Shown: piece by piece, positions 35,159 through 51,242 of the stretch
How the letters are laid out: every line of letters starts with the position of its first letter
How positions within the stretch are numbered: position 1 is the first letter of the stretch
Source of the DNA: Pseudomonas sp. S09G 359
Lineage (GTDB): Bacteria > Pseudomonadota > Gammaproteobacteria > Pseudomonadales > Pseudomonadaceae
Reading direction: 5' to 3'
NCBI RefSeq assembly: GCF_002843605.1
Contig: NZ_CP025263.1
Span: 6,685,501-6,749,500, forward strand
DNA: 64,000 nucleotides
Position numbers and translations under genes: made by a program
Notes under the pieces: generated by a model
Seen by the model: the letters and a program-made list of their open reading frames with translations, nothing else
What the model was told of the DNA's origin: nothing
The model's database searches: none

Positions 35159-36625
35159 ATGAGGCGCTACAACATCACCCACGACGCGAAAACAACGGCT
35201 GGAGGTAAAGTCGTCGCCACCACTCCCGGCGCCACAATCGACGGCAAGCTGGTGGCCCGGGAAGGCGACCCGGTCATTTGCCCAGCCTGCGGCACCCGTG
35301 GGGTTATCGTTTGTGTCGGGCCGCATTTGCATCAGACCTGGTTGGGCCGCCAGACAGCGTTAGAGGGCGATTTGTGCCGGTGTGAATGCAAACCGCCGCC
35401 ACAGTTGATCGCCAACCAGAGCATCATGTGGCAGCAGTTCGAGCAACAGCAGCGATCGAACCCTGCTCCTCGGATGGCACCGCAAGCGACTCCCCTGCCC
35501 CCAGCAAATTTCTCCGCACCTGCGGCAACCAGCAGGCCGATCAGCCCCTGTGTCTTCGCCAAGTCCTGCGTCTCGGTGCCCACCGGCTCTACCGCAGCGG
35601 GCACCGCACCCGAGCGCGCCGCCCACTTCGGCGCCACGGCTCTGCTAGCTTCGACGGGCACCGCAGGTACGGTGGGGCGTGTCGCCGGAACCCTCGGCAG
35701 CGAGTTAGGCAACTGGGCAGTACGCGGGCTAGCCGGGGCAAGCGCGGCGGTCAACGTCGTGCTGCTGGCCTTTATGCCCAGGGATATCGGCGACTCGACG
35801 CTATACACCCCGGAGCAACTGGCGGGCATGCAGTCGGCCAGTACACGGGTGCGTTTCCAGTTTCGTCAGGATGAGAACGGCGAGGTGCAGGTTTATGGCA
35901 TCCATACCCGGCCTGACAGCGGTATGGATCGTGTGCCCGTTACCCGGGCTCGATGGAATGCCGACAAGAGCGCGATGGTGGCGGTGCTGGACGGCATCAG
36001 CATTACCTGGACGCCGAACAATGGGCCGGTGGTCAGCGCGCCAAGCCCTTATCCAGGCACGCCGAAGCGGTTGGATAACCTGCTGGTTCACCCGATTGCG
36101 CCGGGGCAGGATACGAGGATTACGCATTACCCGGGGCGGGATCCTGAGGATATTACCTGGCAGGATACGATCATTACGTTTCCTGCTGACTCGGGTGTGG
36201 CGCCGTTGTATTTGGTGTTTGCCAAGCCGATGGTTAATCCGTTGGAGGTTGGGCAGGCATTAGATTTGATGAGCCGGAGTCGTAAGGACGGCTTGGATAT
36301 CGATCACATTCCAGCACAGAAAGCGTTGGAGTTGGCATTGAAGCGTCGTATCGAGGATTTAGGAGATGAAGACATTCAGAACTTTTTAAGCCACGCGGCC
36401 AGCATTGCAATTCCAACGAGAGTTCATCAGAAATACAGTGAGACGTATGGGGGGCGGAATACCAAGGCCAAACAGACCCAAGATGCTACTGACTTGCGCA
36501 CTGCCGTGAATAGTAACTTCGATGCCATTAAGCGCGGATTGCTTGAGGAGGGCTTTTCTGAGGTCGACATTGAGGCTGCTCGTGAGCAATTACACAATCT
36601 CAACAAAGAACAGGGGTGGTACTGA
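35159..36625 (+). CDS. orphan T6SS PAAR effector with S-type pyocin and nuclease-like domains
   Basis: A 488-residue effector. An N-terminal PAAR domain (1-85; TTPGATIDGKLVAREGD, CPAC) would cap a VgrG spike. A Pro-rich linker (95-130) and a Gly/Ala hydrophobic stretch (150-205) come next, then an S-type-pyocin-like domain (about 225-365). The C-terminal toxin (about 372-488) shows DIDHIP near 379 and a later VHQKYSETYGGRN near 422, an HNH-like pattern suggesting DNase activity; this is inference. No T6SS structural gene is near. From about 36.1 kb the GC drops below that of neighbouring genes, typical of exchanged toxin tips. AAGG precedes the start. Confidence 0.85.
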   Translation: MRRYNITHDAKTTAGGKVVATTPGATIDGKLVAREGDPVICPACGTRGVIVCVGPHLHQTWLGRQTALEGDLCRCECKPPPQLIANQSIMWQQFEQQQRSNPAPRMAPQATPLPPANFSAPAATSRPISPCVFAKSCVSVPTGSTAAGTAPERAAHFGATALLASTGTAGTVGRVAGTLGSELGNWAVRGLAGASAAVNVVLLAFMPRDIGDSTLYTPEQLAGMQSASTRVRFQFRQDENGEVQVYGIHTRPDSGMDRVPVTRARWNADKSAMVAVLDGISITWTPNNGPVVSAPSPYPGTPKRLDNLLVHPIAPGQDTRITHYPGRDPEDITWQDTIITFPADSGVAPLYLVFAKPMVNPLEVGQALDLMSRSRKDGLDIDHIPAQKALELALKRRIEDLGDEDIQNFLSHAASIAIPTRVHQKYSETYGGRNTKAKQTQDATDLRTAVNSNFDAIKRGLLEEGFSEVDIEAAREQLHNLNKEQGWY

Positions 36626-37101
36626 TGGACGCCGTAACTATTGAACGCTGGATCAGAAACTTGGGGCGTTTCTACGTGGAGTTAGTCTCCGAAGGCGTAA
36701 TTCCAGATCTGCCACTTACCGAGTTGTATCAAGGACGCGACTGGTTGACCTTGAAAAAACCAGGGAATGGTCTGGAGTTAAGTTTTTGGGCGCAAACGAA
36801 GCGCTACGAACGGCTCTTCATTACGCTACGTTCTACAGTGGAGGGCACAACAGAATACAACGACGAGCTTCCAGAACCTTTTGGATCAGTCGCGTCCCAG
36901 TCTGAAGTCCGTGCTGCTTTGGGCGTCCCCTTGGAATCACAAGGGCTGACCAAGCTGCCATTGAATACCGTGCTGGGTGGCTTTGATACCTATCCAATGG
37001 ATCAGATCATCTATCCCAATATTAAAGTCTCCTTTCAATACACATCTTCCATGCTGGTCAAAACCCTAGTCTTTTCGTTGATCAACAGAGACCACGACTA
37101 G
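36625..37101 (+). CDS. probable cognate immunity protein (DUF6392-like)
   Basis: A 158-residue cytoplasmic protein whose ATG overlaps the effector stop (TGATG at 36623-36627), the classic effector-immunity arrangement. It starts MDAVTIERWIRNLGRFYVEL and is rich in aromatic and acidic residues with no membrane helix or signal. It looks like the DUF6392 group found beside S-type pyocin effectors, but that naming is from memory. GC is lower than in surrounding genes, like the toxin tip. Confidence 0.78.
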   Translation: MDAVTIERWIRNLGRFYVELVSEGVIPDLPLTELYQGRDWLTLKKPGNGLELSFWAQTKRYERLFITLRSTVEGTTEYNDELPEPFGSVASQSEVRAALGVPLESQGLTKLPLNTVLGGFDTYPMDQIIYPNIKVSFQYTSSMLVKTLVFSLINRDHD

Positions 37102-37298
37102 ATAAGACGTGAGACAGCGAAAAAGGGCAGCCGCTACGTGGTTACAAACAACTCGGCCCGCTCCGTTCTTTGTTCGTCCAACAGCAGACCGTGACTAAAC
37201 CCCCATAAACACGCGCCATCACTGGTGCAGCCCCCAAATAATCGGCACACTCCAAACCAGTTTTTCGCGGGTTCACGGACAAGGAAGCGTCACCCCCC

Positions 37299-37916
37299 AT
37301 GATTTCGATCTATCAGCTCAAACCGCGTTTTCAGAACCTGCTGCGCCCCCTGGTGCAGCGCCTCTACGACAACGGCACCACCGCCAACCAGATCACCGTG
37401 CTGGCCGGCGTGGTTTCGCTGTTGGTCGGCCTGTTGATCGCCAGTTTTGCCGAGCACCGGTGGCTGTTTGCGCTGATCCCGCTGTGGATGATCCTGCGCA
37501 TGGCCCTCAATGCCATCGACGGCATGCTCGCCCGTGAATTCGGCCAACAGTCGCGCCTGGGCGCCTACCTCAATGAACTGTGCGACGTGATTGCCGACAG
37601 CGCGTTGATCCTGCCATTCGCGCTGATCCCCGGCGTGAGCCTGGCGCCGGTGCTGCTGGTGGCCTTGCTGGCGGTGTTCAGCGAATACGCCGGTGTGCTG
37701 GGGCCGATGGTGGGTGCTTCGCGCCGCTATGACGGGCCGATGGGCAAGAGTGACCGTGCGTTCGTACTCGGCGTGCTCGCCACCGGTGTGGCACTCGGCT
37801 GGCTCGGCGCCGGCTGGGTCGACACGGTGATGTGGCTGGTCGCCGCCCTGCTTGCCTACACCCTGGTCAACCGCGTACGCCAAGGCCTGAAAGAAACCAC
37901 TTCCCCTTCTGCATAA
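37299..37916 (+). CDS. ynbA: CDP-alcohol phosphatidyltransferase, YnbA-like
   Basis: A 205-residue membrane protein with about five helices. It carries the CDP-alcohol phosphotransferase motif at about residues 64-92, but the four metal/catalytic Asp positions read Asn-Asp-Asn-Asp (NAIDGMLAR, then GAYLNELCD). That differs from classical PgsA/Pss enzymes and, as I recall, agrees with E. coli YnbA. It opens an operon of six genes with small gaps or overlaps to 42979. The alcohol acceptor is unknown. The ribosome site is AAGGAAG, rather distant. Confidence 0.85.
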   Translation: MISIYQLKPRFQNLLRPLVQRLYDNGTTANQITVLAGVVSLLVGLLIASFAEHRWLFALIPLWMILRMALNAIDGMLAREFGQQSRLGAYLNELCDVIADSALILPFALIPGVSLAPVLLVALLAVFSEYAGVLGPMVGASRRYDGPMGKSDRAFVLGVLATGVALGWLGAGWVDTVMWLVAALLAYTLVNRVRQGLKETTSPSA

Positions 37917-37926
37917 GGATTTTGCG

Positions 37927-39681
37927 ATGCGCGAACAGCAAGCACACACCTTCAGTACCCATGATGGCGTCGAGCTTTTCTACCGCCACTGGCCAGCCAG
38001 CGCGCCCACACAGGGCGAGCCGCGCAAGGCCATCGTGCTGTTCCATCGCGGCCACGAGCATTCGGGGCGCATCGCCCACCTGGTCGATGAGCTGAACCTG
38101 CCGGGTTTCGACTTTTTCGCCTGGGACGCCCGTGGCCATGGCCAATCGCCTGGCGAGCGCGGCGACAGCCCAAGTTTCGCCACCAGCGCCCGCGACGTGC
38201 AGACCTTTTGCGACCATATCGGCGCCACCTATGGCATTGAAGAAGAAAACTTCGCTGTCATTGCCCAAAGCGTCGGTGCGGTGGTCGCGGCCACCTGGGT
38301 GCATGACTACGCGCCGAAAATCCGCGCGCTGGTGCTCGCCTCCCCGGCGTTCAAGGTCAAGCTCTACGTGCCCTTCGCCCGCCCGGGCCTGGCGCTGATG
38401 CGCAAATTTCGCGGCAACTTTTTCGTCAACAGTTACGTCAAGGCCAAGTTCCTCAGCCATGACCCGGAGCGCGTGGCGTCCTACGACAGCGACCCGCTGA
38501 TCACCAAAGCCATCTCGGTGAACGTGCTGCTGGGTCTGTACGAAGCCGCCGACCGCGTTGTAGCCGATGCCCAGGCGATTCAGGTGCCGACCCAGTTGCT
38601 GGTCTCCGGCTCCGACTTTGTGGTGCATCGCAAACCCCAGCAGCAATTTTTCGACCGCCTCGGCAGCCTGAAAAAAGAGCTGCACATCCTCCCCGGCTTC
38701 TTCCACGATACCCTCGGCGAACGCGACCGCGCGGTGGCCGTGAGCAGTGCCCGGCGCTTTATCCTGCAAAACTTTGCGCACCCGCTGGACCGCGCCTCGC
38801 TGCTGGACGCCGACAAATTGGGCGCCACTTGCGCCGAGTCCGAATCCCTCGCCGCGCCGCTGCCACGTAACTCACTGCGCGACCTCTACTGGCGCATGAC
38901 CCGCGCCAGCATGGGCCTGGGCAAGAACCTGTCGGACGGCGTAAAGCTGGGCTTCGACACCGGTTTCGACTCCGGCAGCACCCTCGACTACGTGTACCGC
39001 AACAAGCCCACCGGCAAAGGCGGGCTGGGGCGGATGATCGACACCAACTACCTCAACTCCATCGGCTGGCGTGGCATTCGCCAGCGCAAACTGAACGTCG
39101 AAGAACTGCTGCGCCTGGCCATGGCCAAATTGCGCGCGGATGACCGTGAAGTGCGCATCGTGGATATCGCTGCCGGCCATGGCCGCTACATTCTGGAAGC
39201 CTTGCAGGGTGTGTCGCCGTTGCCGGAATCGATCCTGCTGCGCGACTACAGCGATATCAACGTACGCGACGGTGGCGCGCTGATTCGCGAGAAAGGCCTG
39301 GGGGATATTGCGCAGTTCGTCAAAGGCGACGCCTTTGACCGCTTGGATTTGGCGGCACTCAACCCTAAGCCGACGCTGGCCGTGGTATCCGGGCTGTACG
39401 AGTTGTTTGCCGACAACGGCATGGTCGGCGGTTCGCTGGCCGGCCTGGCCGAAGCCGTGGAACCGGGCGGTTACCTGGTCTATACCGGCCAGCCGTGGCA
39501 CCCGCAGCTGGAGCTTATCGCCCGCGCGCTGACCAGCCATCGCCAGGGCCAGGCCTGGGTGATGCGCCGTCGCAGCCAGGCGGAAATGGATCAGTCGGTG
39601 GAGGCCGCAGGCTTTCGCAAAATCACCCAGCGCGTGGATGAGTGGGGCATCTTTACCGTGTCCCTGGCGCAGAAGATCTGA
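37927..39681 (+). CDS. ynbC: YnbC-like fusion of alpha/beta hydrolase and methyltransferase
   Basis: A 584-residue two-domain protein. Residues 1-290 form a monoacylglycerol-lipase-type alpha/beta hydrolase with WDARGHGQSPGERGDS and the nucleophile elbow AQSVGA (near 115). The likely Asp is in SGSDFVV and the His in GFFHDTLGE. Residues about 340-584 form a class I SAM methyltransferase with VDIAAGHGRYILEAL (near 413). The fusion length agrees with E. coli YnbC. It probably trims and methylates a lipid made by this operon; substrate unknown. It starts 10 bases after ynbA. Confidence 0.87.
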   Translation: MREQQAHTFSTHDGVELFYRHWPASAPTQGEPRKAIVLFHRGHEHSGRIAHLVDELNLPGFDFFAWDARGHGQSPGERGDSPSFATSARDVQTFCDHIGATYGIEEENFAVIAQSVGAVVAATWVHDYAPKIRALVLASPAFKVKLYVPFARPGLALMRKFRGNFFVNSYVKAKFLSHDPERVASYDSDPLITKAISVNVLLGLYEAADRVVADAQAIQVPTQLLVSGSDFVVHRKPQQQFFDRLGSLKKELHILPGFFHDTLGERDRAVAVSSARRFILQNFAHPLDRASLLDADKLGATCAESESLAAPLPRNSLRDLYWRMTRASMGLGKNLSDGVKLGFDTGFDSGSTLDYVYRNKPTGKGGLGRMIDTNYLNSIGWRGIRQRKLNVEELLRLAMAKLRADDREVRIVDIAAGHGRYILEALQGVSPLPESILLRDYSDINVRDGGALIREKGLGDIAQFVKGDAFDRLDLAALNPKPTLAVVSGLYELFADNGMVGGSLAGLAEAVEPGGYLVYTGQPWHPQLELIARALTSHRQGQAWVMRRRSQAEMDQSVEAAGFRKITQRVDEWGIFTVSLAQKI

Positions 39682-39683
39682 GC

Positions 39684-40982
39684 ATGCGCGAACCCGGTCT
39701 ACTGAAACCCGCCTGCCTGTGGCTGCTGCTGTTGGCGCCGCTGTTTTTCAGCACCTACGGCTTTGCCACCTGGGTCACCAGCCAGCGCAGCGACGTCGGC
39801 ACCCTGGTGTTCGACTGGGAAACCCATATGCCGTTCCTGGCGTGGACCATCGTGCCCTACTGGTCCATCGACCTGCTCTACGGTTTCTCGCTACTGCTGC
39901 CCAATAGCCGCCATGAGCTGAAACAACACGCCCTGCGCCTGTTGAGCGCCCAGTTGATTGCCGTGAGTTGCTTCCTGCTCTGGCCCCTGCGCTTCACCTT
40001 CGAGCGGCCGGAGCTGGATGGCGTGTTCGGCTGGCTGTTCGCCGTGTTGGCGGGCTTCGACAAACCGTTCAACCAGGCGCCGTCGCTGCATATCGCGCTG
40101 CTGGTGATCCTGTGGGTCATGTACCAGCGGCATACCCAAGGGGTGTGGCGCTGGGTGGTGCATGGCTGGTTCGGGCTGATCGGGATTTCGGTGCTGACCA
40201 CTTATCAACATCACTTTATCGACTTACCCACAGGCGCCCTCGCCGGCTGGATTTGCGTGTGGCTTTGGCCGACGGAGCATCCAAGCCCGCTACTGAATGC
40301 GCGGCTGACTCGGGATCGGCAGCGTTGGCGCCTGGGTGTGCGCTATGGCCTGGGCGCGCTAGCGCTGGTCGTCCTGGCATTCAGCTTGCGTGGCTGGTGG
40401 CTGTGGCTGCTGTGGCCGGCGGTGTCCCTGGGCTTGATCAAGGCGAATTACTTGGTGCTCGGCGCGACGGGCTTTCAGAAGCGTGCCGATGGCCGACTTA
40501 CACCGGCGGCACGCTGGTTGTATGCGCCTTACCTGGCCGCGGCGTGGATCAACTCACGGCTGTGGACGCGTAAACATCCGCAAGCAGACTTAATTGTGGA
40601 TAACGTTTGGCTCGGGCGGATTCCCACATCGAAAGAGCAGGATTCATTCAAGGCCATCGTCGATCTGTGTGCCGAACTGCCGATTAATCCACAGGCCCGT
40701 GCCTATCAATGTGTACCGGTGCTGGACCTGATTGCCCCCACCCCTGCCGAATGCCAGCAAGCTGCCGAGGCTATCGAACGCCTGCGCGCCAGCGGCCCCT
40801 TGCTGGTGTGCTGCGCCCTCGGCTACTCACGCAGCGCCACCGCCTTCGCCGCGTGGCTGCTGCATACCGGGCGCGCCACGACGGTTGAGCAGGCGCTGAC
40901 TATCATTCGTACAGCGCGGGCCGACGTGGTCCTGCACCCCGCACACCGTGAAGCGTTGGAGGGTTTGCCCCATGCCCGCTGA
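39684..40982 (+). CDS. ynbD: YnbD-like PAP2 and dual-specificity phosphatase fusion
   Basis: A 432-residue protein with six or more N-terminal helices forming a PAP2-like lipid phosphatase domain (PSLHIALL near 133, HHFIDLPTGALAG near 174). A further pair of helices (about 225-260) leads to a cytoplasmic dual-specificity phosphatase domain with the P-loop CCALGYSRSAT (near 375). Length agrees with E. coli YnbD. It begins 2 bases after ynbC. Two phosphatase types in one chain suggest removal of phosphate from a lipid head group, which is inference. Confidence 0.85.
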   Translation: MREPGLLKPACLWLLLLAPLFFSTYGFATWVTSQRSDVGTLVFDWETHMPFLAWTIVPYWSIDLLYGFSLLLPNSRHELKQHALRLLSAQLIAVSCFLLWPLRFTFERPELDGVFGWLFAVLAGFDKPFNQAPSLHIALLVILWVMYQRHTQGVWRWVVHGWFGLIGISVLTTYQHHFIDLPTGALAGWICVWLWPTEHPSPLLNARLTRDRQRWRLGVRYGLGALALVVLAFSLRGWWLWLLWPAVSLGLIKANYLVLGATGFQKRADGRLTPAARWLYAPYLAAAWINSRLWTRKHPQADLIVDNVWLGRIPTSKEQDSFKAIVDLCAELPINPQARAYQCVPVLDLIAPTPAECQQAAEAIERLRASGPLLVCCALGYSRSATAFAAWLLHTGRATTVEQALTIIRTARADVVLHPAHREALEGLPHAR

Positions 40983-41415
40983 TATGGAACTCCAGGTAGT
41001 TGCCAGCCTGCTGCGCCGTGGCCGTTCGCTGGATCAGTTATCCACAGGCCTGACCGTGGCCGGCGTGGTGTTCGGCCTCGCCCAATTGCTGATGGCGAGT
41101 ATTTCAACGATCTGCCTGCTGCTCAGCCTGTGGATGATTATCCTCGGGTTGCTGCAAAAGTACTGGGCGCTGCGCGTGGCGTTCGATGCCGACCTGTTTG
41201 CCCTGCTCGCCCGCGACATCGACCGCACCACGGACCTCGACCAGGCCCTGCAAACCCTTGGCCTGCAATCACCCAAGCGTGCCGGGCGGCCGTGGACCGA
41301 GCGCCGTCGCGGCGCGCTCAAACTGCTGCGCAAACAAGCCTGGTTGCTGGGCGCGCAAGCGCTGCTGACCCTGGGCGTGATTCTCGCCAGCCCTTGGCTG
41401 CCTTTCGCCGGATAA
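40972..41415 (+). CDS. small membrane protein in the ynb-like operon
   Basis: A 147-residue protein with three hydrophobic segments (about residues 24-40, 43-60 and 125-145) and a charged middle part (RDIDRTTDLDQALQTLGLQ). I recognise no family. The start at 40972 lies 11 bases inside ynbD and has GGAGGG eight bases upstream, so translation is coupled. It has no counterpart in E. coli ynbABCD as I recall it. A membrane adaptor role is possible but unsupported. Confidence 0.78.
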   Translation: MPADMELQVVASLLRRGRSLDQLSTGLTVAGVVFGLAQLLMASISTICLLLSLWMIILGLLQKYWALRVAFDADLFALLARDIDRTTDLDQALQTLGLQSPKRAGRPWTERRRGALKLLRKQAWLLGAQALLTLGVILASPWLPFAG

Positions 41416-41424
41416 GGAAACCCC

Positions 41425-42045
41425 ATGTTCGAACCCGTGGTCGCCACATTGATAACCTCCATGGCCCGCACCGTCACCGGCGCCCGCAGCCTGTGGCTGG
41501 GCTGCGCGCCGGTGCCGGTGCAACGCATCTACTTCGCCAACCACAGCAGCCACGGCGACTTCGTGCTGCTGTGGGCATCGTTGCCGCAGAACCTGCGCAA
41601 ATTCACCCGCCCGGTGGCCGGCAGTGATTACTGGAACAAAAGCGCGTTGCGCCGCTACATCATCAACCGTGTGTTCAATGGCGTGCTGATCGACCGCGAG
41701 CGCAAAGAGCCTGTGGATAACCCCTTGCAGCCCATGTTGGCGGCCCTGGAAGGCGGCGACTCACTGATCATCTTCCCCGAAGGCACACGTAATCTGGAGG
41801 ACGGCCTGCTGCCGTTCAAAAGCGGCTTGTACCACCTCGCGAAAAGTTACCCACAGGCCGAATTGATCCCCGTGTGGATCGCCAACCTCAACCGGGTCAT
41901 GCCCAAGGGCCGCGTACTGCCGCTGCCTTTGTTGTGCACCACCAGCTTCGGCGCGCCGCTGCAATTGGGGGACGGTGAAGACAAAGCCGCGTTCCTCGCC
42001 CGCACCCGCGACGCCCTGCTCGCCCTTGCCCCGGAGCATTCCTGA
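41425..42045 (+). CDS. PlsC-like 1-acyl-glycerol-phosphate acyltransferase
   Basis: A 206-residue acyltransferase with the catalytic HX4D motif in NHSSHGDFVLLW (near 39-50), the glycerol-phosphate-binding FPEGTRN (near 117) and VFNGVLIDRERK between them. It has no long membrane segment. It is a PlsC-family paralogue rather than the housekeeping PlsC, which is usually longer. It is nine bases after the small membrane protein gene. It probably acylates the unknown lipid of this operon. Confidence 0.88.
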   Translation: MFEPVVATLITSMARTVTGARSLWLGCAPVPVQRIYFANHSSHGDFVLLWASLPQNLRKFTRPVAGSDYWNKSALRRYIINRVFNGVLIDRERKEPVDNPLQPMLAALEGGDSLIIFPEGTRNLEDGLLPFKSGLYHLAKSYPQAELIPVWIANLNRVMPKGRVLPLPLLCTTSFGAPLQLGDGEDKAAFLARTRDALLALAPEHS

Positions 42046-42046
42046 G

Positions 42047-42979
42047 ATGGCTAGCCAAACCCTGATGTTGTTCGGCGGGATCGGCGCGATCCTGATACTG
42101 GCCTCGCTGATCGGCCTGATCCTCAAGCTGCGCACCCGTGGTACGCCGAATACGGTGATCGACAACCTCAACGCGCGCATCAACGCCTGGTGGGTGATGG
42201 TGGTGGTGATCGGCATCGCCTTCTGGCTCGGCACCGGCGCGGTGATCCTGTTGTTCTACGCCGTGTCGTTCTACGCCCTGCGCGAATTCCTCACCCTCAC
42301 GCCCACCCGCCGCAGCGACTACCCGGCGCTGGTAGCCGCGTTCTACCTGGCCCTGCCGCTGCAGTACCTGCTGATCTATGCGGACTGGTACGGGCTGTTC
42401 TCGATCTTTATCCCGGTGTACGTGTTCTTGCTGCTGCCGATCCTCGCCAGCCTCGGTGGCGACAGCACCCACTTCCTCGAGCGGGCCTCGAAAGTGCAAT
42501 GGGGGCTGATGATCGCGGTGTTCTGCGTGTCCTTCGTGCCTGCGCTGCTGACCCTCGACATCCCCGGCTACGAAGGCCGCAACCTGCTGCTGATCGCCTA
42601 CCTGGTGATCGTGGTGCAACTCTCGGACGTGTTGCAGTACGTGTGCGGCAAGCTGTTCGGCAAACATAAGATCGCGCCCAACCTGTCGCCGTCGAAAACC
42701 GTGGAAGGCTTTGTCGGCGGCATTCTGCTCTCCTCCCTGATCGGCGCGGCGCTGTGGTGGACCACGCCATTCAACCCGTGGCAGTCGTTCTTGATCGCGC
42801 TGTTGATCAACCTGCTCGGGTTTGCCGGCGGCATCGTGATGTCAGCCATCAAGCGCGACCGCGGCGTGAAGGACTGGGGCCATATGATCGAAGGGCACGG
42901 CGGCATGCTCGACCGCCTGGATTCGGTGTGTTTTGCCGCGCCAATCTTCTTCCACCTCGTGCGCTACTGGTGGACGTGA
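42047..42979 (+). CDS. ynbB: CdsA-like phosphatidate cytidylyltransferase, YnbB type
   Basis: A 310-residue polytopic protein with about eight helices. It has the CTP:phosphatidate cytidylyltransferase signature SAIKRDRGVKDWGHMIEGHG followed by GMLDRLDS (about residues 262-290) and SPSKTVEGFVGG (near 221). It would supply a CDP-activated lipid for the YnbA-like transferase. It is longer at the N-terminus than typical CdsA and is a paralogue of the essential cdsA found elsewhere. It is the last gene of the operon, 1 base after the acyltransferase stop. A REPIN follows. Confidence 0.88.
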   Translation: MASQTLMLFGGIGAILILASLIGLILKLRTRGTPNTVIDNLNARINAWWVMVVVIGIAFWLGTGAVILLFYAVSFYALREFLTLTPTRRSDYPALVAAFYLALPLQYLLIYADWYGLFSIFIPVYVFLLLPILASLGGDSTHFLERASKVQWGLMIAVFCVSFVPALLTLDIPGYEGRNLLLIAYLVIVVQLSDVLQYVCGKLFGKHKIAPNLSPSKTVEGFVGGILLSSLIGAALWWTTPFNPWQSFLIALLINLLGFAGGIVMSAIKRDRGVKDWGHMIEGHGGMLDRLDSVCFAAPIFFHLVRYWWT

Positions 42980-43102: not shown

Positions 43103-43156
43103 CTTTTGTATCAAAGACGCTGTAAGATACGCCGCACTTAGCCAGGGATGCTCACC

Positions 43157-46100
43157 ATGTTCGATTCGTTCAAAGCGATCAGCCGCCGTATTGTCGGTGC
43201 GTTATTGACTGTGGTGGGCGCCGTTTTCGGCCAATGGCAGCCGCCGTTCTGGCTGCGCGCCATCGGCCGTGGCCTGGCGAACCTGGGCAACAAGGCGCGT
43301 GCTTATCCGCGCCAGACCGGTGCCGGCGTACTGGGCCTGGTACTGCTCGCCGCCGCCGGTTTTTACGGCTGGCACTGGTATTCCAACCTGCCGCAGCCGC
43401 ACACCGCGAGCTATTCGCTGCACAAGCCCAACCTGACCAACTACACCCAGCAACCGCCGGTTGTGGATAACTTGCAGGTACGCTTTGCCGAATCCGTGGC
43501 TCCGCTGGCGGCCATCGGCAAGCCAGTGACTGAAGGCATCACCCTCAAACCCGAGGTGGCAGGCACCTGGCGCTGGTCCGATGACCGCACCTTGCTGTTC
43601 GTGCCGGAAAAAGACTGGCCGGTAGACGCCCATTACAGCCTCGACCTGGCCAAGAAAAACCTGCTGGCCGACGGCGTACTGCTGGACCAATACACCACTC
43701 AATTTTCTACCCAGCCGTTCCGCGCCACGTTGGCGCAAAACGAGCTGTACCAAGACCCGTCCAACCCCACGCTGAAACAGCTGGTAGCCACATTCCGGTT
43801 TTCCCACCCTGTAGATGAAGAAAGCCTACGCAAGCGCGTGTCCGTCACCCTCGGCAAAGGCCTGGCCTATCGCGACGCCCAGTTGCCTAACCGCCCGGAA
43901 ATCACCTTCGACGACACCAAGCTCAACGCCTACGTACGTTCTGCCGCCCTGGCCACCCCGCTGGAAAGCACGCCGGTCAGCGCCAAGCTGGACGAAGGCA
44001 TCAAGGCCCGCGACGGCGGCAACGCCAGCACCGCGCCGCTGGTGGCCGAAGTCACCGTGCCCGGCCGCTACCGCCTGACATTCACTGGCGCCGAAGTCAG
44101 CTTTGTGGATAACGAACGCGGTGAGCCGGAGCCCGTGCTGATGTTCAGCAGCTCCAGCGCCGTGGCCGATGACACCATCGCCGGTAAGGTCCAGGCTTGG
44201 CTGCTGCCGGAAAAAGCCCAGGACGATACCCGCCCCTACAGCAGCAACGATATCGACGATGCATTGCTCGCCCGCAGCAGCAAAATCAGCCTGACCCACG
44301 TGCCCAGCGTCGAACCGCTGAACACCCTGCACGCCTTCAAATTCAAGGCCCCTGCGGGTCGCGCGCTGTATGTAAGGGTGCCGGCCAACCTGGAAGCCAT
44401 CGGCGGCTATTTGGCGAAGAATCCTACGGCCTCGCTGCTGAGCATGCCGGCTTACCCACGCACCTTGCAGTTCCTGTCCGACGGCGCCTTGCTCAGCCTC
44501 AATGGCGAAAAACGCCTGGGTTTCATGGCCCGTGGCGTGCCCGGCGCCCACGTGGAAATCGCCCGCCTGCTGCCCAACCAGCTGCAACACCTGGTGGACC
44601 AGAGCAGCGGCAGCTTCGCCCGCCCCAACTTCGGCAACGAATATTTCGATCGCATGGTCGAGCGTCAGTCACTGGACATTCCACTGTCGTCCAATGACCC
44701 GGCCAAAACCGTCTACGACAACGTGGACCTCAGCCACTACCTCACCGCCAACGGCGGCCGACGCGGTATTTTCGTACTCAAGCTCAGCCCGCAGGATGAC
44801 ACGGCCCAGCGTACGTTCGAGTACGACCGCAGCAGCACCAGCGACCTGCGTTTTATCGTAGTGACGGACCTGGGCATCATCGCCAAGCGTTCCAGCGACG
44901 GCAGCCATGATGTGTATGTGCAGTCCATCGGCAACGGTTCGCCGGTAGCCGACGCGCAAGTCGACATCATTGGCCGCAACGGCCTGCCGGTCAGCAGTGG
45001 CCGTACCGATGGCGAAGGCCATGTGCATTTCGCCAAGCTGGATGAACTGCGCCGTGAGAAAACGCCGCTGATGTATGTGGTTACGCGCGGTAATGACCAG
45101 TCATTCCTGCCGATCGCACGCCAGTCTCAGCAGTTGGATTTGTCGCGCTTCGACGTAGGCGGTCTGGAAGAAGACGGTGCGATTGATCGCCTCAGCGCCT
45201 ACCTGTTTACCGACCGCGGCCTGTACCGACCCGGCGAAACCGCGCACCTGGGCATGATCGTGCGCAGCGGCAACTGGAAAGGCGCCCTGCGAGGCCTGCC
45301 GGTGGAGCTGCAAATCACCGACCCGCGTGGCCTGGAGGTAATCCGCCAGCCGCTGAAACTGTCCGCCAGCGGGTTTGAAACCTTTGATTTCCCCAGCAGC
45401 GAAGTCGCCCCCGCCGGGGAATACACCGCGACCCTGCAGTTGATTGGCCAGAAGCAGACCCGCACCGACCTGGGCAGCGTGAGCTTCAAGGTCCGCGACT
45501 TTGAACCGGACCGCATGAAAGTCAGCCTGAGCCTGCACGACACACCCGTGTTGGGTTGGATTGCACCGGACCAAGTAGTGGCAAAAGTCACCGCGATGCA
45601 CCTGTTCGGCGCCCCGGCATCTGGCCGGCGCGTGACCGCGAAAATGTCCCTGAGCCCGACGCTCGCGGCCTTCGACCGCTACCCGGATTACCGTTTCCGC
45701 CTCAATGACGCCCTGGAAGACGCCAGCACCGAAGACCTCGCCGAAACCACCGTGGACGATAACGGCCAGGCGGTCCTCGACCTCAACCTGCAACGCTTCG
45801 CCAACAGTACCTATCGCCTGCAAGTGGCAACCCAAGTGTTCGAGGCCGAGGGTGGCCGCAATGTGGCGGCGCAAAGTGCCCTGCTGGTGTCGTCCGCGCC
45901 CTACCTGGTGGGTGTGAAAAGTCAGGATTCGCTGTCGTACGTCGCCAAGGACGCGCCGCGTCAGGTGCAATGGCTGGCCGTCGCGCCGGACCTGACGCCG
46001 CTGGCGGTCGACGGCCTGACCAGCGAGGTGGTCGAACACCGTTATGTGTCGGTGCTGGTGAAGCAATCCAACGGCACCTACAAATACGAGTCGCGCATCA

Positions 46101-48961
46101 AGAACATCAGCCAGCCGGCCGCACCGCTGGTGATGACAGAGAAAGGCGCCAAGCAGGCCCTGAACACCGGTACGCCGGGGGATTACACCCTGCAACTCAA
46201 GGATGCCAACGGCAACCTGCTCAGCCAGATCGACTACAGCGTGGCCGGACGGGGCAACACCTCGCGCTCCCTGGAGCGTAATGCCGAGTTGCAACTGCGC
46301 CTGGATAAACGCAGCTACGCCACTGGCGACGAGATCGCGATCAGCATCCGCGCGCCCTACACCGGCGCCGGCTTGATCACCATCGAACGCGACAAGGTGT
46401 ATACCCAGCAATGGTTCAAGGCCGACAGCACCAACAGCGTGCAACATATCCGCGTGCCCGCAGGGCTTGAGGGCAATGCCTACGTCAACGTGCAGTTCGT
46501 ACGGGATATGGGTTCGGCCGAGGTCTACATGAGCCCGCTGTCCTACGGCGTGGTGCCGTTCAGCATCAACCTGGATGCACGGCGCATGGCGCTCAAGGTC
46601 GAAGGCCCGGCGAAGATCGAGCCGGGGCAGACGCTGGATATCAAGGTGAACGCCGACCGCCCGGGCCGCGCAGTGGTCTACGCGGTGGATGAAGGCATTC
46701 TGCAAGTGGCGCGCTACCAGACGCCGGACCCGTTGGGCTTCTTCTTCCAGAAGCGCGCGCTGGAAGTCGGCACCAGTCAGATCCTTGACCTGATCCTGCC
46801 GGAATTCAGCCGCCTGCTCAGTGGGGCAGCGCCCGGTGGCGATACCGAAGGCGCCCTGGCCAACCACCTCAACCCGTTCAAGCGTAAACATCAGCCGCCG
46901 GTAGCCTGGTGGTCCGGGCTGGTGGACTTGCCGGCCGGCGAAACCGTGCTGCATTACCAGGTGCCGGACAGCTTCAACGGCAAGCTGCATCTGTTTGCCG
47001 TGGCGGTGGACACCGACAGCGTGGGGGTCAGTGAGGCCAACACTGAGGTGCGCGGGCCGATTGTAATCACGCCAAACGTGCCGGCCTTTGTGGCGCCGGG
47101 GGATGTGTTCAACGTAAGCGCGGGCGTGTTCAGCAACCTCGACGCGGCGGCGGATGTGAAGTTTGAGGTACAGACCAGCGCTGGCCTGGTGGTGCAAGGC
47201 GACAAGGGCAGCACCTTGTCCCTGCAACCGCGCAAGGAAGGCACCGCCGAGTTCAAGATCAAGGTGGGCGAAACCCTGGGTTCGGCAGACCTGCGTTTTG
47301 TAGCGGTATTGCCGGATGGCAAACGCATCCAGGTGGCGGAAACCACCTCGATCCGCCCGCTCAGCGAGCACCGCGTAGCCTTGAGCCTGGGCCGCTTCGA
47401 CAGCGCCAGCAAAGAGCTGAAACCCACGCGCGAACTGTTCACCCAACTGCGCGACGTGCAACTGGGCGTCGCCGCTTCGCCGCTGGTATGGGCCAACGGC
47501 CTCAAGCATTACCTGGATGACTACGGCTATGCATGCACCGAGCAGTTGGTGTCCAAGGCCATGCCGGCGTTGATCTGGGGTGGTACGGAACCTGCGGCCG
47601 AGCAAGCCTTCAACAGCGCCGTACGCATGCTCCGTCAGCGTCAGAACCAGGCCGGCGGCTTCGGTTTGTGGGCGGCCAACCCGGACGTGGCGCCGTATGC
47701 CAGCCTGTACGCCACCGACTTCCTGATCGAAGCCAAGGAACGCGGGCTGCCAGTGCCGGAAGACGTGTTAGTGCGCTCGAACGCTTATCTGACAGACCTG
47801 GCCAACGGCCCGAGCGAAGGCCTGTCGGAATTACGCAACCGTGCCTACGCCAGTTACCTGCTGAGCCGTCAGGGGATTCTGGTGAGCGGTGCCTTAAGTG
47901 ATATCCGCGAGCGCTACGAAAGCTACTTCAAGGACAGTTGGCAGAACGACATTGGCGCCGCATACCTGGCCGCCAGCTACAAGCTGCTCAAGCAGGATCG
48001 CCAGGCGGATACGCTGTTCCGCAAGGTTCCATGGCGTTCGCTTGTGGATAAGTGGGACAGCGACGGCCTGTATTACGACCCGCTGGTGCACGATGCCGAA
48101 CACCTGCACCTGCTGGCGCGGCACTTCCCCGAGCTGCTGGACGACGTGCCGGTGGCCTTGCTGGATAAGCTCGGCAAGCGCCTCAACGAGCAACGCTACA
48201 ACTCGCTGTCGGCCGCCCTGTTACTGCGCGCCCTGGACAACTACGGCCAGCGTGCACAGAGCGACATGACCCTAAAAGCCACCGCCTGGCTGGGCGACAA
48301 GCAGCAACAACTGCTGGAAATGGCCGGCCAGCCGCCACGCGCCGCCGTACCAGGCGCCACGCAGAAGCTGGTGATGGAAAAATCCGACGGCCCAGCGGCG
48401 TTTTACATGCTCAGCGAAGCCGGTTTCGACAAGGGCGCCAAGCTCAAGCCGATCACCAATGGCCTGGAAATCATTCACGAATACCTCGACCTCAAGGGCG
48501 AGCCGGTGAGCAAAGTGGCGGTGGGCGACGAGTTCCTGGTGCGCCTGCGCCTGCGTGCCACCGACCGTGACCAGGTGCAGCAAGTGGCCGTGGTCGACCT
48601 GCTGCCAGGTGGCGTCGAGCCTGTGTATAACTTGCCGCCGGAGCCGGAAGCCGCCAGTTCCGAGGAAAGTGAAGGTGAAGAATCCGAGTACGTCGAAGCC
48701 AGCGACGAAGAGGCCGACACCTGGCAGGCGCCGATCGGCGAAACCGAACTGAGCAACTGGCAGCCGGAGTACGTGGATGTACGTGATGACCGGGTGGTGT
48801 TGTACGGCACTGCGCTGCGCGACGTAGGCACTTTCGTGTACCGCGTGCGCGCCACCAACGCAGGGACCTTCAATACGCCACCGGCCTACGCCGAAGGTAT
48901 GTACGAAACCACCCTGCAAGGGCGCGGCAAAGTAGGCCAGCTTGAAATTACCAAGCCTTAA
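43157..48961 (+). CDS. bacterial alpha-2-macroglobulin with intact thioester
   Basis: A 1934-residue periplasmic protease trap. It has an N-terminal transmembrane anchor (about residues 55-73, TGAGVLGLVLLAAAGFYGW) instead of the lipobox of E. coli YfhM. MG-type domains follow, then the thioester motif YACTEQL (CTEQ near 1458), a helical TED domain and a C-terminal receptor-like domain. An acidic insert (ASSEESEGEESEYVEASDEE) lies near 1834. The start at 43157 has AGGG nine bases away; the ATG at 43148 is alternative. The PBP1C gene overlaps its end, as in the E. coli yfhM-pbpC pair. The pair is thought to defend the envelope after wall breach. Confidence 0.92.
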   Translation: MFDSFKAISRRIVGALLTVVGAVFGQWQPPFWLRAIGRGLANLGNKARAYPRQTGAGVLGLVLLAAAGFYGWHWYSNLPQPHTASYSLHKPNLTNYTQQPPVVDNLQVRFAESVAPLAAIGKPVTEGITLKPEVAGTWRWSDDRTLLFVPEKDWPVDAHYSLDLAKKNLLADGVLLDQYTTQFSTQPFRATLAQNELYQDPSNPTLKQLVATFRFSHPVDEESLRKRVSVTLGKGLAYRDAQLPNRPEITFDDTKLNAYVRSAALATPLESTPVSAKLDEGIKARDGGNASTAPLVAEVTVPGRYRLTFTGAEVSFVDNERGEPEPVLMFSSSSAVADDTIAGKVQAWLLPEKAQDDTRPYSSNDIDDALLARSSKISLTHVPSVEPLNTLHAFKFKAPAGRALYVRVPANLEAIGGYLAKNPTASLLSMPAYPRTLQFLSDGALLSLNGEKRLGFMARGVPGAHVEIARLLPNQLQHLVDQSSGSFARPNFGNEYFDRMVERQSLDIPLSSNDPAKTVYDNVDLSHYLTANGGRRGIFVLKLSPQDDTAQRTFEYDRSSTSDLRFIVVTDLGIIAKRSSDGSHDVYVQSIGNGSPVADAQVDIIGRNGLPVSSGRTDGEGHVHFAKLDELRREKTPLMYVVTRGNDQSFLPIARQSQQLDLSRFDVGGLEEDGAIDRLSAYLFTDRGLYRPGETAHLGMIVRSGNWKGALRGLPVELQITDPRGLEVIRQPLKLSASGFETFDFPSSEVAPAGEYTATLQLIGQKQTRTDLGSVSFKVRDFEPDRMKVSLSLHDTPVLGWIAPDQVVAKVTAMHLFGAPASGRRVTAKMSLSPTLAAFDRYPDYRFRLNDALEDASTEDLAETTVDDNGQAVLDLNLQRFANSTYRLQVATQVFEAEGGRNVAAQSALLVSSAPYLVGVKSQDSLSYVAKDAPRQVQWLAVAPDLTPLAVDGLTSEVVEHRYVSVLVKQSNGTYKYESRIKNISQPAAPLVMTEKGAKQALNTGTPGDYTLQLKDANGNLLSQIDYSVAGRGNTSRSLERNAELQLRLDKRSYATGDEIAISIRAPYTGAGLITIERDKVYTQQWFKADSTNSVQHIRVPAGLEGNAYVNVQFVRDMGSAEVYMSPLSYGVVPFSINLDARRMALKVEGPAKIEPGQTLDIKVNADRPGRAVVYAVDEGILQVARYQTPDPLGFFFQKRALEVGTSQILDLILPEFSRLLSGAAPGGDTEGALANHLNPFKRKHQPPVAWWSGLVDLPAGETVLHYQVPDSFNGKLHLFAVAVDTDSVGVSEANTEVRGPIVITPNVPAFVAPGDVFNVSAGVFSNLDAAADVKFEVQTSAGLVVQGDKGSTLSLQPRKEGTAEFKIKVGETLGSADLRFVAVLPDGKRIQVAETTSIRPLSEHRVALSLGRFDSASKELKPTRELFTQLRDVQLGVAASPLVWANGLKHYLDDYGYACTEQLVSKAMPALIWGGTEPAAEQAFNSAVRMLRQRQNQAGGFGLWAANPDVAPYASLYATDFLIEAKERGLPVPEDVLVRSNAYLTDLANGPSEGLSELRNRAYASYLLSRQGILVSGALSDIRERYESYFKDSWQNDIGAAYLAASYKLLKQDRQADTLFRKVPWRSLVDKWDSDGLYYDPLVHDAEHLHLLARHFPELLDDVPVALLDKLGKRLNEQRYNSLSAALLLRALDNYGQRAQSDMTLKATAWLGDKQQQLLEMAGQPPRAAVPGATQKLVMEKSDGPAAFYMLSEAGFDKGAKLKPITNGLEIIHEYLDLKGEPVSKVAVGDEFLVRLRLRATDRDQVQQVAVVDLLPGGVEPVYNLPPEPEAASSEESEGEESEYVEASDEEADTWQAPIGETELSNWQPEYVDVRDDRVVLYGTALRDVGTFVYRVRATNAGTFNTPPAYAEGMYETTLQGRGKVGQLEITKP

Positions 48962-51242
48962 ACGCCTAACGCCGCCGCTGCTGGTAGCGGCGGTTCTGCT
49001 GGCGGGATTGCGGCTATGGCCGCATGCCCCGCTGGAACAGGCGGTAACGTCTTCAAGGGTGGTGCTGGCCGACGACGGCTCGCTGCTACGCATGACGCTG
49101 GCGGATGACGGCCAATACCGACTCTGGCTACCTCTGGAGCGGATTTCTCCTTCACTGGTCGAGGCCTTGCTGCTCAAGGAGGACCGCAATTTCTACTGGC
49201 ACCCGGGAGTAAATCCTCCGGCATTGCTACGCGCGGCACTCGCCACCTACAGCGGCGGCCAGCGCCAGGGCGGCTCGACCTTGAGCATGCAACTGGCGCG
49301 GCGCCTGTGGGACCTGAACACCCGCCAAGTGCCCGGCAAATTGCAGCAGATGGCCTTGGCGCTGTGGCTGGAGGCGCGCTACAGCAAGCACGACATCCTG
49401 GAGGCCTACCTGAACCTGGCGCCCATGGGCGGCAATATCGAAGGCGCCGAGGCCGCCAGCCGCATTTACTTCGGTAAGTCGGCGGCGCAATTATCCTTGT
49501 CCGAAGCCCTGGCGTTGGCCGTGATCCCACAGCAGCCGGGGCGGCGGGCGCGCTTTGGGCCGGCGCTGCAAAATGCGCGGCTGCGCTTGATGGCCGATTG
49601 GCGCGAGACTTATCCACAGGACCCACGCAACGACAGTTTGCTCAACCTGCCCCTGGAAGCGCGCAACCGCCAGCAGATCCCGTTTCTAGCGCCACACCTG
49701 AGCGAGCAACTGCTGGCGTCCCAGCCCGGCAATGAGTTGAACAGCACTCTCAACCTGCCACTGCAGCAATTGCTCGAGCGCTTGATCAACGGCTTTATCG
49801 CCGAGCGCCGCAGCACGGGTGTGGAAAACGCCACGGCGATCCTGATCGACAGCCGCGACCAGAGCGTGAAAGCCCTGGTGGGCTCCGCGGATTACTTATC
49901 CACAAGCCTGCACGGCCAGGTCAACGGCGTGCTGGCGCGGCGCTCGCCGGGGTCGACCCTCAAGCCATTCCTGTATGGGCTGGCGCTGGATCAGGGGGTG
50001 ATCCACCCCATGAGCATCCTCAAGGACCTGCCCAGTAACTTCGGCTACTTCCAGCCGGAAAATTTCGACGGCAGTTTTGTCGGGCCTCTGACGGCGCGGG
50101 ATGCCCTGATCCGTAGCCGTAATATCCCGGCGGTATGGCTGGCCAGCCAGGTCAAATCACCATCGCTGTACGGCCTGTTGCAACGGGCCGGCATCAAAGG
50201 CCTGCGCGACGAGAGCCATTACGGCCTGGCCCTGGCCCTCGGCGGTGGCGAGATGACCCCGGAGGAACTGGCGCGGCTGTATGTGATGCTGGCCGGCGAC
50301 GGGCACCTGCGCCCGCTGCGCTATCTGCAGGAGCAACCGCAAACCACCGGTGCGCAACTGCTGACGCCCCAAGCCGCGTTTATGGTGCGCGACATGCTGC
50401 GCCGCAATCCGCGCCCGGATGGCTTGCCCGGCCGCCATTGGCGCACCGCCTGGAAAACCGGCACCTCCTGGGGCTTTCACGATGCCTGGAGTGCAGGCCT
50501 GGTGGGCCCGTATGTGTTGGTGGTGTGGGTGGGCAACTTCGATGGGCGGCCGAACCCGGCGTTTATCGGCGCCAAGACCGCCGCGCCGCTGTTCTTCCGT
50601 ATCGCCGACGCCCTTCCCCTGGCCCTGCCCAATGTGCTGATCAAGCCCGACAAGCCGCCCGCCGGGCTGGTGCGCATCGACGTCTGCGCCGCCTCCGGTG
50701 AGCTGCCCAACCGCTGGTGCCCGCAAACCCGCAAGACCTGGTACATCCCTGGCGTCTCACCGATTCGCGTGTCCAACCTGCACCGCCCGGTGCTGATCGA
50801 CACCCGCACCGGCAAGGCTGCGTGCCCGCCGTTCGAGGCGCAATACACCCGCGAAGAAGTCTTCGAGTTCTGGCCCAGCGACATCCAACGCCTGTACCGC
50901 GCCGCCGGCCTGCCGCGGCGCACACCGCCCAGCGTGATGAAAAACTGCCAGCCCAACCGCATCAGCGACCAAAGCGAAGCGCCGCAGATCCGCTCGCCCC
51001 TGACCCAGGTGAGCTACCAGTTGCGCCTGTCCCAGCCCCAGGAAAGCATCCCACTGAATGCCAACGCCGCCAGCGATGCAGCGACCCTGTACTGGTTCGC
51101 CGACCAGACCCTGATCGGCCAGGGCCCGCCGCAAACCACGCTGAATTGGCGGCCGGGCAAGTCGGGGGAATACCGGTTGCGGGTCAGTGATGATCAGGGG
51201 CGCAGCACGAGTCGGGGGCTAAAAGTGGAGTTTGTGCCGTGA
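48942..51242 (+). CDS. pbpC: penicillin-binding protein 1C
   Basis: A 766-residue bifunctional wall synthase with one N-terminal helix (about 8-26). The GT51 glycosyltransferase domain (about 50-215) contains KEDRNFYWHPGVNP and GGSTLSMQLARRLW. The transpeptidase (about 280-560) has STLK (the active Ser in RSPGSTLKPF), SRN and KTGTSWG. A BiPBP_C domain (about 675-766) ends it. The start is TTG at 48942, 20 bases inside the alpha-2-macroglobulin gene, so translation is probably coupled. All catalytic motifs are intact. Confidence 0.92.
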   Translation: MKLPSLKRLTPPLLVAAVLLAGLRLWPHAPLEQAVTSSRVVLADDGSLLRMTLADDGQYRLWLPLERISPSLVEALLLKEDRNFYWHPGVNPPALLRAALATYSGGQRQGGSTLSMQLARRLWDLNTRQVPGKLQQMALALWLEARYSKHDILEAYLNLAPMGGNIEGAEAASRIYFGKSAAQLSLSEALALAVIPQQPGRRARFGPALQNARLRLMADWRETYPQDPRNDSLLNLPLEARNRQQIPFLAPHLSEQLLASQPGNELNSTLNLPLQQLLERLINGFIAERRSTGVENATAILIDSRDQSVKALVGSADYLSTSLHGQVNGVLARRSPGSTLKPFLYGLALDQGVIHPMSILKDLPSNFGYFQPENFDGSFVGPLTARDALIRSRNIPAVWLASQVKSPSLYGLLQRAGIKGLRDESHYGLALALGGGEMTPEELARLYVMLAGDGHLRPLRYLQEQPQTTGAQLLTPQAAFMVRDMLRRNPRPDGLPGRHWRTAWKTGTSWGFHDAWSAGLVGPYVLVVWVGNFDGRPNPAFIGAKTAAPLFFRIADALPLALPNVLIKPDKPPAGLVRIDVCAASGELPNRWCPQTRKTWYIPGVSPIRVSNLHRPVLIDTRTGKAACPPFEAQYTREEVFEFWPSDIQRLYRAAGLPRRTPPSVMKNCQPNRISDQSEAPQIRSPLTQVSYQLRLSQPQESIPLNANAASDAATLYWFADQTLIGQGPPQTTLNWRPGKSGEYRLRVSDDQGRSTSRGLKVEFVP

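Follow-up and report, generated by a model that had tools for sequence, protein, structure and literature searches.

The 64,000-nucleotide stretch of Pseudomonas sp. S09G 359 analysed here (the window; contig NZ_CP025263.1, positions 6,685,501 to 6,749,500) carries a six-gene operon, its genes denoted A, C, D, S, P and B in their order on the + strand. Sequence comparison makes it almost certain that these genes are orthologous, one for one and in order, to arc1A-F of P. aeruginosa. The operon is probably an arc1-type inducible accessory phospholipid pathway used when neighbouring cells attack. The preliminary description of this DNA had regarded the pathway as undescribed, which does not hold, since the operon is already known as arc1 (PMC8926400); its proposal of a dedicated lipid-related pathway, conserved as a unit and related to Escherichia coli ynbABCD, is supported. 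New here are a double Asp to Asn replacement in protein A, found together with a fixed GPxGKSDRA motif, the lack of an inositol-phosphate synthase match in 24 genomes with the C gene, and a putative RsmA-type site in the arc1A leader of both the window and a P. aeruginosa-like genome. The operon arc1 is a named bacterial defence locus, and its tie to ynbABCD moves the lipid question into the best-studied laboratory organism, where it is testable by lipidomics, and the fixed double replacement is a precise and surprising target in a well-understood enzyme family.

Genes PA2541-PA2536 were named arc1A-F in 2022 as a Gac/Rsm-controlled "antagonism resistance cluster" (PMC8926400). The orthology test employed the primers of the PA2541 deletion construct from the same paper, which were searched in 298 genomes of the family. 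A 21-base primer piece was found in one of these genomes, G766 (contig 6.59 Mb). Its stretch L150 contains three of the four primer pieces exactly (the fourth has no match), two of which bracket the A gene; the label "P. aeruginosa-like" for G766 and L150 rests on these primer matches. According to tblastn, all six window proteins have counterparts in L150, in the same order A-C-D-S-P-B, with identities of 72% (A), 80% (C), 63% (D), 49% (S), 67% (P) and 85% (B).

The tight packing noted in the preliminary description was borne out by a check of the open reading frames (ORFs). Six complete and intact + strand ORFs, all with an ATG start, occupy positions 37299-42979 of the window (Table 1), separated by 10 (A-C), 2 (C-D), -11 (D-S), 9 (S-P) and 1 (P-B) bases; the host genome is a single contig of 6.77 Mb. 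Protein C matches monoglyceride lipases in the PDB (best E 3.5e-26), and B matches the solved CdsA structure 4q2g (E 4.6e-15). The methyltransferase domain of C, searched alone, has no PDB sequence match up to E 0.1; the profile of full-length C gives one weak match in this part, 9sls (Methyltransferase type 12, E 3.9e-4). No meaning is assigned to a 20.4-bit PADLOC match of the same part to mad2, nor to single weak PHROGs matches of C and of D. The score of D against PF14378 (PAP2_3), 21.7 bits, is under the cut-off of 27; its motifs NQxPSLH and QHHxxD are kept in 104/104 and 103/104 copies, respectively, the one exception, L039, being cut by a contig end. Protein S has no family match in Pfam, NCBIfam, PADLOC or PHROGs. 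The catalytic motifs of C, D, P and B are largely kept: [QH]SVG in 104/107 and DxAAGxGRY in 106/107 copies of C; CxLGxxRS in 103/104 copies of D, the exception again being L039; NHxxHxD in 98/99 and EGTR in 99/99 copies of P; and GHGGxxDRxD in 102/102, SxxKRDxxxKD in 101/102 and [PS]xKTxEG in 98/102 copies of B.

Table 1. Genes and putative regulatory sites of the arc1-type operon and its surroundings (window positions).
Feature	Position	Strand	Length, family match or remark
Gene for protein with PAAR motif and Pyocin_S	35159-36625	+	upstream of arc1
DUF6392 gene	36616-37101	+	overlaps end of PAAR-pyocin gene; directly upstream of arc1
Putative RsmA/RsmE-type site tcacggacaa	37273-37282	+	at presumed Shine-Dalgarno of A; 9/10 matches to WCANGGANGW
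Putative RsmA/RsmE-type site acaaggaagc	37279-37288	+	at presumed Shine-Dalgarno of A; 9/10 matches to WCANGGANGW
A, CDP-alcohol phosphotransferase; ortholog of Arc1A (PA2541) and YnbA	37299-37916	+	205 aa; PF01066 CDP-OH_P_transf, 33.9 bits
C, alpha/beta hydrolase (monoglyceride-lipase-like) fused to Methyltransf_20; ortholog of YnbC and the second arc1 gene	37927-39681	+	584 aa; PF12146 Hydrolase_4, 251.8 bits; PF12147, 508.2 bits
D, PAP2-like membrane domain and dual-specificity phosphatase; ortholog of YnbD	39684-40982	+	432 aa; PF00782 DSPc, 39.0 bits
S, small membrane protein	40972-41415	+	147 aa; two hydrophobic segments (simple hydropathy scan)
P, PlsC-like acyltransferase	41425-42045	+	206 aa; PF01553 Acyltransferase, 58.6 bits
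B, CdsA-like cytidylyltransferase; ortholog of Arc1F (PA2536) and YnbB	42047-42979	+	310 aa; PF01148 CTP_transf_1, 247 bits
Large bacterial alpha-2-macroglobulin gene	43148-48961	+	downstream of operon
ORF resembling penicillin-binding protein 1C	48942-51242	+	by eye only

Co-occurrence of the six families, the check proposed in the preliminary description, was followed in 82 family loci, namely the window, L150 and, out of at least 554 C relatives in the genome collection, the best 80; these best 80 are all from Pseudomonas. Each gene is present in 80-82 of the loci (A 81, C 82 by selection, D 82, S 81, P 80, B 80), and the absences are due to L039, L058 and L083, in which a contig end falls inside the operon. 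The packing is not a matter of chance, because all six genes are kept together across nearly all of these loci. Within the genus, 61 of 119 genomes have C with an E value of 1e-100 or lower, and the operon is therefore not universal there; one of the 61 copies (G970:C9:27451-29199) has an internal stop codon. Across the phylum, 30 of 398 genomes passed E 1e-30; three of these had only weak partial matches, which leaves 27 with full-length relatives of C. Among 72,556 plasmid records, 29 carry a relative of C at E 1e-60, Shinella accounting for 13 of them.

A set of 26 diverse loci comprised the window, E. coli and 4 + 20 loci from two wider scans, five same-genus matches having been left out. 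In this set C is accompanied by A in 26/26 loci, by D and B in 23/26 each, by S in 21/26 and by P in 20/26; the S matches in L141, L144, L146 and L147 are weak (28-40 bits). A with C is thus the constant pair of the loci examined. Shinella (Alphaproteobacteria) and Burkholderia ambifaria (Betaproteobacteria) each have all six types together, with S represented by an unnamed gene at the matching position, and the six-gene module spans alpha-, beta- and gammaproteobacteria. In some diverse loci A or the P-B pair lies on the opposite strand, and in G513 P and B form a pair at a locus separate from the rest of the operon. That these parts are combined again and again speaks for a single pathway. 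Two insertions were seen: a WG-repeat protein of 717 aa encoded between C and D in the operon of genome G650 (L136, 10808-12961), and a SnoaL-like protein between B and A in L016 (11525-12121), a locus without D, S and P. An apparent A-hydrolase fusion, P0084, reads into the start of C and then, as judged by eye, into unrelated sequence, and was taken as a reading-frame error.

Judged by sequence, arc1 and ynbABCD are one family, a relationship new here. Orthologs of YnbA, YnbB, YnbC and YnbD are all present in the window operon, with identities to the E. coli proteins (L005) of 45% for YnbA and A, 57% for YnbC and C and 41% for YnbD and D, and YnbA has the same N..D..N..D motif as A. The gene order differs, being A-B-C-D in E. 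coli. The preliminary description had recognised the relatedness correctly and had erred in denying ynbABCD the CdsA type: a gene of this type is present as ynbB, whose annotation reads putative CDP-diglyceride synthase, and only S and P are missing beside it. A ynbABCD match is present in 4579 of 5426 complete E. coli genomes, covering at least 80% of the length at one place in 4242 of the 5426. In E. coli ET12567 (NZ_CP045457.1, 1780550-1786468) the match contains an IS4-like transposase gene, and two CDP-alcohol transferase features are annotated there. No printed link between arc1 and ynbABCD was found in the literature searched, which did not cover PMC12663445, and "ynb" is absent from the available main text of PMC8926400.

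The two systems are also joined in an unrooted tree built from 29 CdsA-family proteins, those of 13 genomes and of E. coli. The 14 operon-type proteins, including YnbB, the P. aeruginosa-like Arc1F and the separate G513 copy, fall on one side of a 100/99 branch and the 14 housekeeping-type proteins on the other. The remaining protein, an unassigned paralog of G638, sits within the operon-type clade; nearest to it are three long-branch housekeeping rows, with a warning from the program about long branches meeting at this point. This paralog (G638:C14:126167-126955, L177) is a third CdsA-family gene and lies on another contig than the operon. At least two CdsA-family members were found in each of the 13 genomes searched. 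Operon B and housekeeping CdsA thus belong to a common family, with GHGGxxDRxD in all operon copies, and differ in falling on opposite sides of the 100/99 branch. As YnbB makes CDP-diacylglycerol and supports the glycolipid MPIase, and cannot replace CdsA for phospholipids (PMC6362211, PMC7018664), a route related to MPIase comes into question, in which B would make GlcNAc-PP-diacylglycerol (GlcNAc, N-acetylglucosamine), as reported for YnbB, and the other genes would tailor it. The grouping of operon B with YnbB speaks for such a route. However, a ynbB knockout did not significantly change MPIase (PMC6362211), and the route leaves A, the constant partner of C, without a role; it is considered very improbable. 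The role of the N-terminal half of YnbB is called unknown in PMC6362211.

The CDP-alcohol phosphotransferase motif is normally D-x2-DG-x2-AR...G-x3-D-x3-D, its four Asp residues serving as metal ligands and base. This canonical four-Asp motif is absent from all 106 operon A proteins compared, which have N-x2-DG-x2-AR...G-x3-N-x3-D (106/106), with the first and third Asp replaced by Asn; the Shinella and Burkholderia copies have N-D-N-D too. The same pattern occurs in all 120 of the 7997 homologs that were listed, nearly all of them close Pseudomonas relatives and hence not an independent sample. The genome's own PgsA, E. coli PgsA and YnjF have D-D-D-D, as do, by eye, two further paralogs of the genome and the best PDB relative, a phosphatidylinositol-phosphate (PIP) synthase. 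GPxGKSDRA is present in 106/106 A proteins, in the window as GPMGKSDRA. Since the site is altered yet strongly constrained, changed chemistry is favoured over decay.

Among NCBIfam models, A scores best against archaetidylinositol phosphate synthase (72.2 bits), followed by PIP synthase (48.0 bits), with only 22.1 bits for PgsA; in the PDB, a PIP synthase comes first (E 6.6e-6). These matches raised the question of a phosphatidylinositol-type pathway as in actinobacteria, with A as PIP synthase and D, whose dual-specificity phosphatase is present in the operon, as PIP phosphatase. A indeed resembles PIP synthase in its family (PF01066) and DG-x2-AR core. Nevertheless, both scores are far under the curated cut-offs (180 for archaetidylinositol phosphate synthase, 170 for PIP synthase), the first and third Asp are Asn, and inositol-phosphate synthase (PF07994) has no match in any of 24 genomes with the C gene, whereas 5 of 14 control genomes matched, three of them over the cut-off. 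Phosphatidylinositol made from cell-made inositol phosphate is therefore unlikely and was mostly rejected; the pathway as a whole, which imported inositol might feed, is given hardly any probability. A different phosphorylated polyol is offered as a guess for the substrate of A, because the phosphatase D usually accompanies A.

The window leader ttcacggacaaggaagcg, shortly 5' of the A start codon, contains two overlapping 9/10 matches to the RsmA/CsrA consensus used, WCANGGANGW. The leader in L150 is ACAAGGACTG, and ACAAGGA is found in both. ACAnGGA is present in 53 of 81 arc1A leaders. Longer ORFs from the 80 loci have it in 6 of 812 leaders, and in the window alone the background is 0 of 32; the background leaders belong to script-called ORFs of at least 250 aa with guessed starts and were scored over 22 bases, compared with 45 for arc1A, so the contrast is inflated. 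RsmA sites often sit in hairpin loops. In a single-strand fold AAGGA of the window leader lies in the loop of a 3-base-pair hairpin and that of L150 does not; with no shuffled control, this was counted as neutral. Three CsrA-family genes are present in the window genome. PA2541 is one of the genes listed as having one known RsmA site, placed around the Shine-Dalgarno sequence (PMC4066749), and Arc1-3 are mentioned as Gac/Rsm targets (PMC11888443). According to PMC8926400, basal expression of arc1 is very low and rises with Gac/Rsm activation.

Experimental data on P. aeruginosa give the operon its physiological setting. The arc1 genes emerged from transposon screens under attack by the type VI secretion system (T6SS) of B. 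thailandensis and were needed under attack; complementation of single deletions was partial, a second deletion within the operon was not additive, and the mutants survived heat, peroxide, salt and detergent normally (PMC8926400). Five of the six genes were predicted to be phospholipid genes, and four resemble enzymes of phosphatidylglycerol (PG) synthesis (PMC8926400). In 2025, arc1A was linked to resistance against T6SS lipase effectors: cells lacking it showed increased sensitivity to V. cholerae, an effect that was weaker with inactive TseL, and to A. baylyi delivering only the lipase Tle1, and the sensitivity of a strain without tssM1, arc1A, arc3A and aas to Tae1 or Tse2 was not above that of the parent (PMC12663445). 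Separately, a PA2537 transposon mutant showed a colony phenotype and survived less well in the airways of mice (PMC2246019), and PA2539 stands, with several T6SS genes, in a table of genes down-regulated upon inhibition of lipoprotein transport (PMC7685553). A defence role of the operon in Pseudomonas sp. S09G 359 is likely.

The operon very probably builds or repairs a membrane lipid; no lipid product of arc1 is named in the available portions of the literature surveyed. The domain names point to methylation and acylation steps, and a chemical scheme, tentative and somewhat short of an even chance, can be outlined. P would acylate a lysolipid or lysophosphatidate. B would convert phosphatidic acid to CDP-diacylglycerol, as a private pool apart from that of the housekeeping CdsA, and A would transfer the phosphatidyl group to an alcohol. 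This acceptor would most likely be a phosphorylated polyol, though not inositol phosphate made by the cell itself. Removal of the terminal phosphate, as in PG synthesis, would then fall to the phosphatase half of D; C would deacylate a lysolipid or glyceride and methylate the product or its precursor, with S as a membrane partner. Either a PG-like modified lipid or the accompanying lysolipid recycling would limit the damage by injected phospholipases.

The same enzymes might instead carry out repair with no new lipid, as a stress-induced second set for PG synthesis and lysolipid recycling, in which the lipase part of C removes lysophospholipids, P adds acyl chains back, and B, A and D replenish the usual precursors of PG or phosphatidylethanolamine. 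The similarity of C to monoglyceride lipases is consistent with it, as is a match of C, far below the cut-off, to lysophospholipase L2 (33.6 of 362 bits); so are the resemblance of four Arc1 proteins to PG-synthesis enzymes (PMC8926400) and the protection by arc1A against lipases alongside Aas and Arc3A (PMC12663445). On the other hand, A is not PgsA-like, either by its score against the PgsA model or by its Asp to Asn changes, and plain PG synthesis has no place for a methyltransferase, yet C is the most constant partner of A. Repair of this kind is held to be rather unlikely, though by some way the weightiest of the alternatives.

Several points weigh against the arc1-type accessory pathway used under attack. 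Two of the four catalytic Asp residues of A are Asn, so its activity may be changed or lost, and only 95/107 copies of C retain the oxyanion-type motif HxGHEHS. Three of the 26 diverse loci are without D, E. coli ynbABCD is without S and P genes beside it, and 28 of 81 arc1A leaders are without ACAnGGA, which suggests that control may differ in some subgroups. In P. aeruginosa, the arc1 mutant was not rescued by inactivating any one of the toxins tested, the cut-off was passed by only one arc1 gene for Tle3 and one for ColA, and attacker survival was modestly higher after arc1 loss (PMC8926400); against V. cholerae, arc1A appeared to play no more than an auxiliary part beside arc3A (PMC12663445).

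A bolder extension of the accessory-pathway reading can be formulated, in which arc1 and ynbABCD would be one widespread proteobacterial system making a new methylated "armour" phospholipid on demand. Such a lipid would be a poor phospholipase substrate, made with an A enzyme whose metal site has been rebuilt (two of four Asp to Asn), and its production would be placed under lineage-specific regulators of envelope danger, Gac/Rsm in pseudomonads and RcsB-BglJ in E. coli. In this full form the proposal is speculative and improbable. Activation of E. coli ynbA by BglJ-RcsB has been cited (PMC12871917), and Rcs defends E. coli against T6SS attack via osmotic-response genes and exopolysaccharide (review PMC7825059); ynbABCD might contribute to this Rcs-linked defence.

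The PAAR-pyocin and DUF6392 pair upstream looks like a T6SS effector and its immunity partner. A PAAR protein match was found in 4 of 80 loci, one of them full length, and alpha-2-macroglobulin (first 600 residues as query) lies downstream in 16 of 80, some loci being cut short; both occur together only in L040. Being rare beside arc1, these genes are not part of the unit.

Compared with known systems, the window operon is closest to P. aeruginosa arc1A-F, with which it has in common six genes, their order and strand, and ACAAGGA 5' of the first gene in both the window and L150; it differs in lying between the PAAR-pyocin gene pair and the alpha-2-macroglobulin gene, for which no match was seen in L150 (19.9 kb). 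For the E. coli relative, ynbABCD, activation by BglJ-RcsB has been cited (PMC12871917), rather than by Gac/Rsm. Aas includes a PlsC-type acyltransferase step. Apart from this step, the LplT/Aas system of lysophospholipid repair and Arc3 are built from other protein families than arc1, and the three have a common physiological setting, resistance to lipase effectors.

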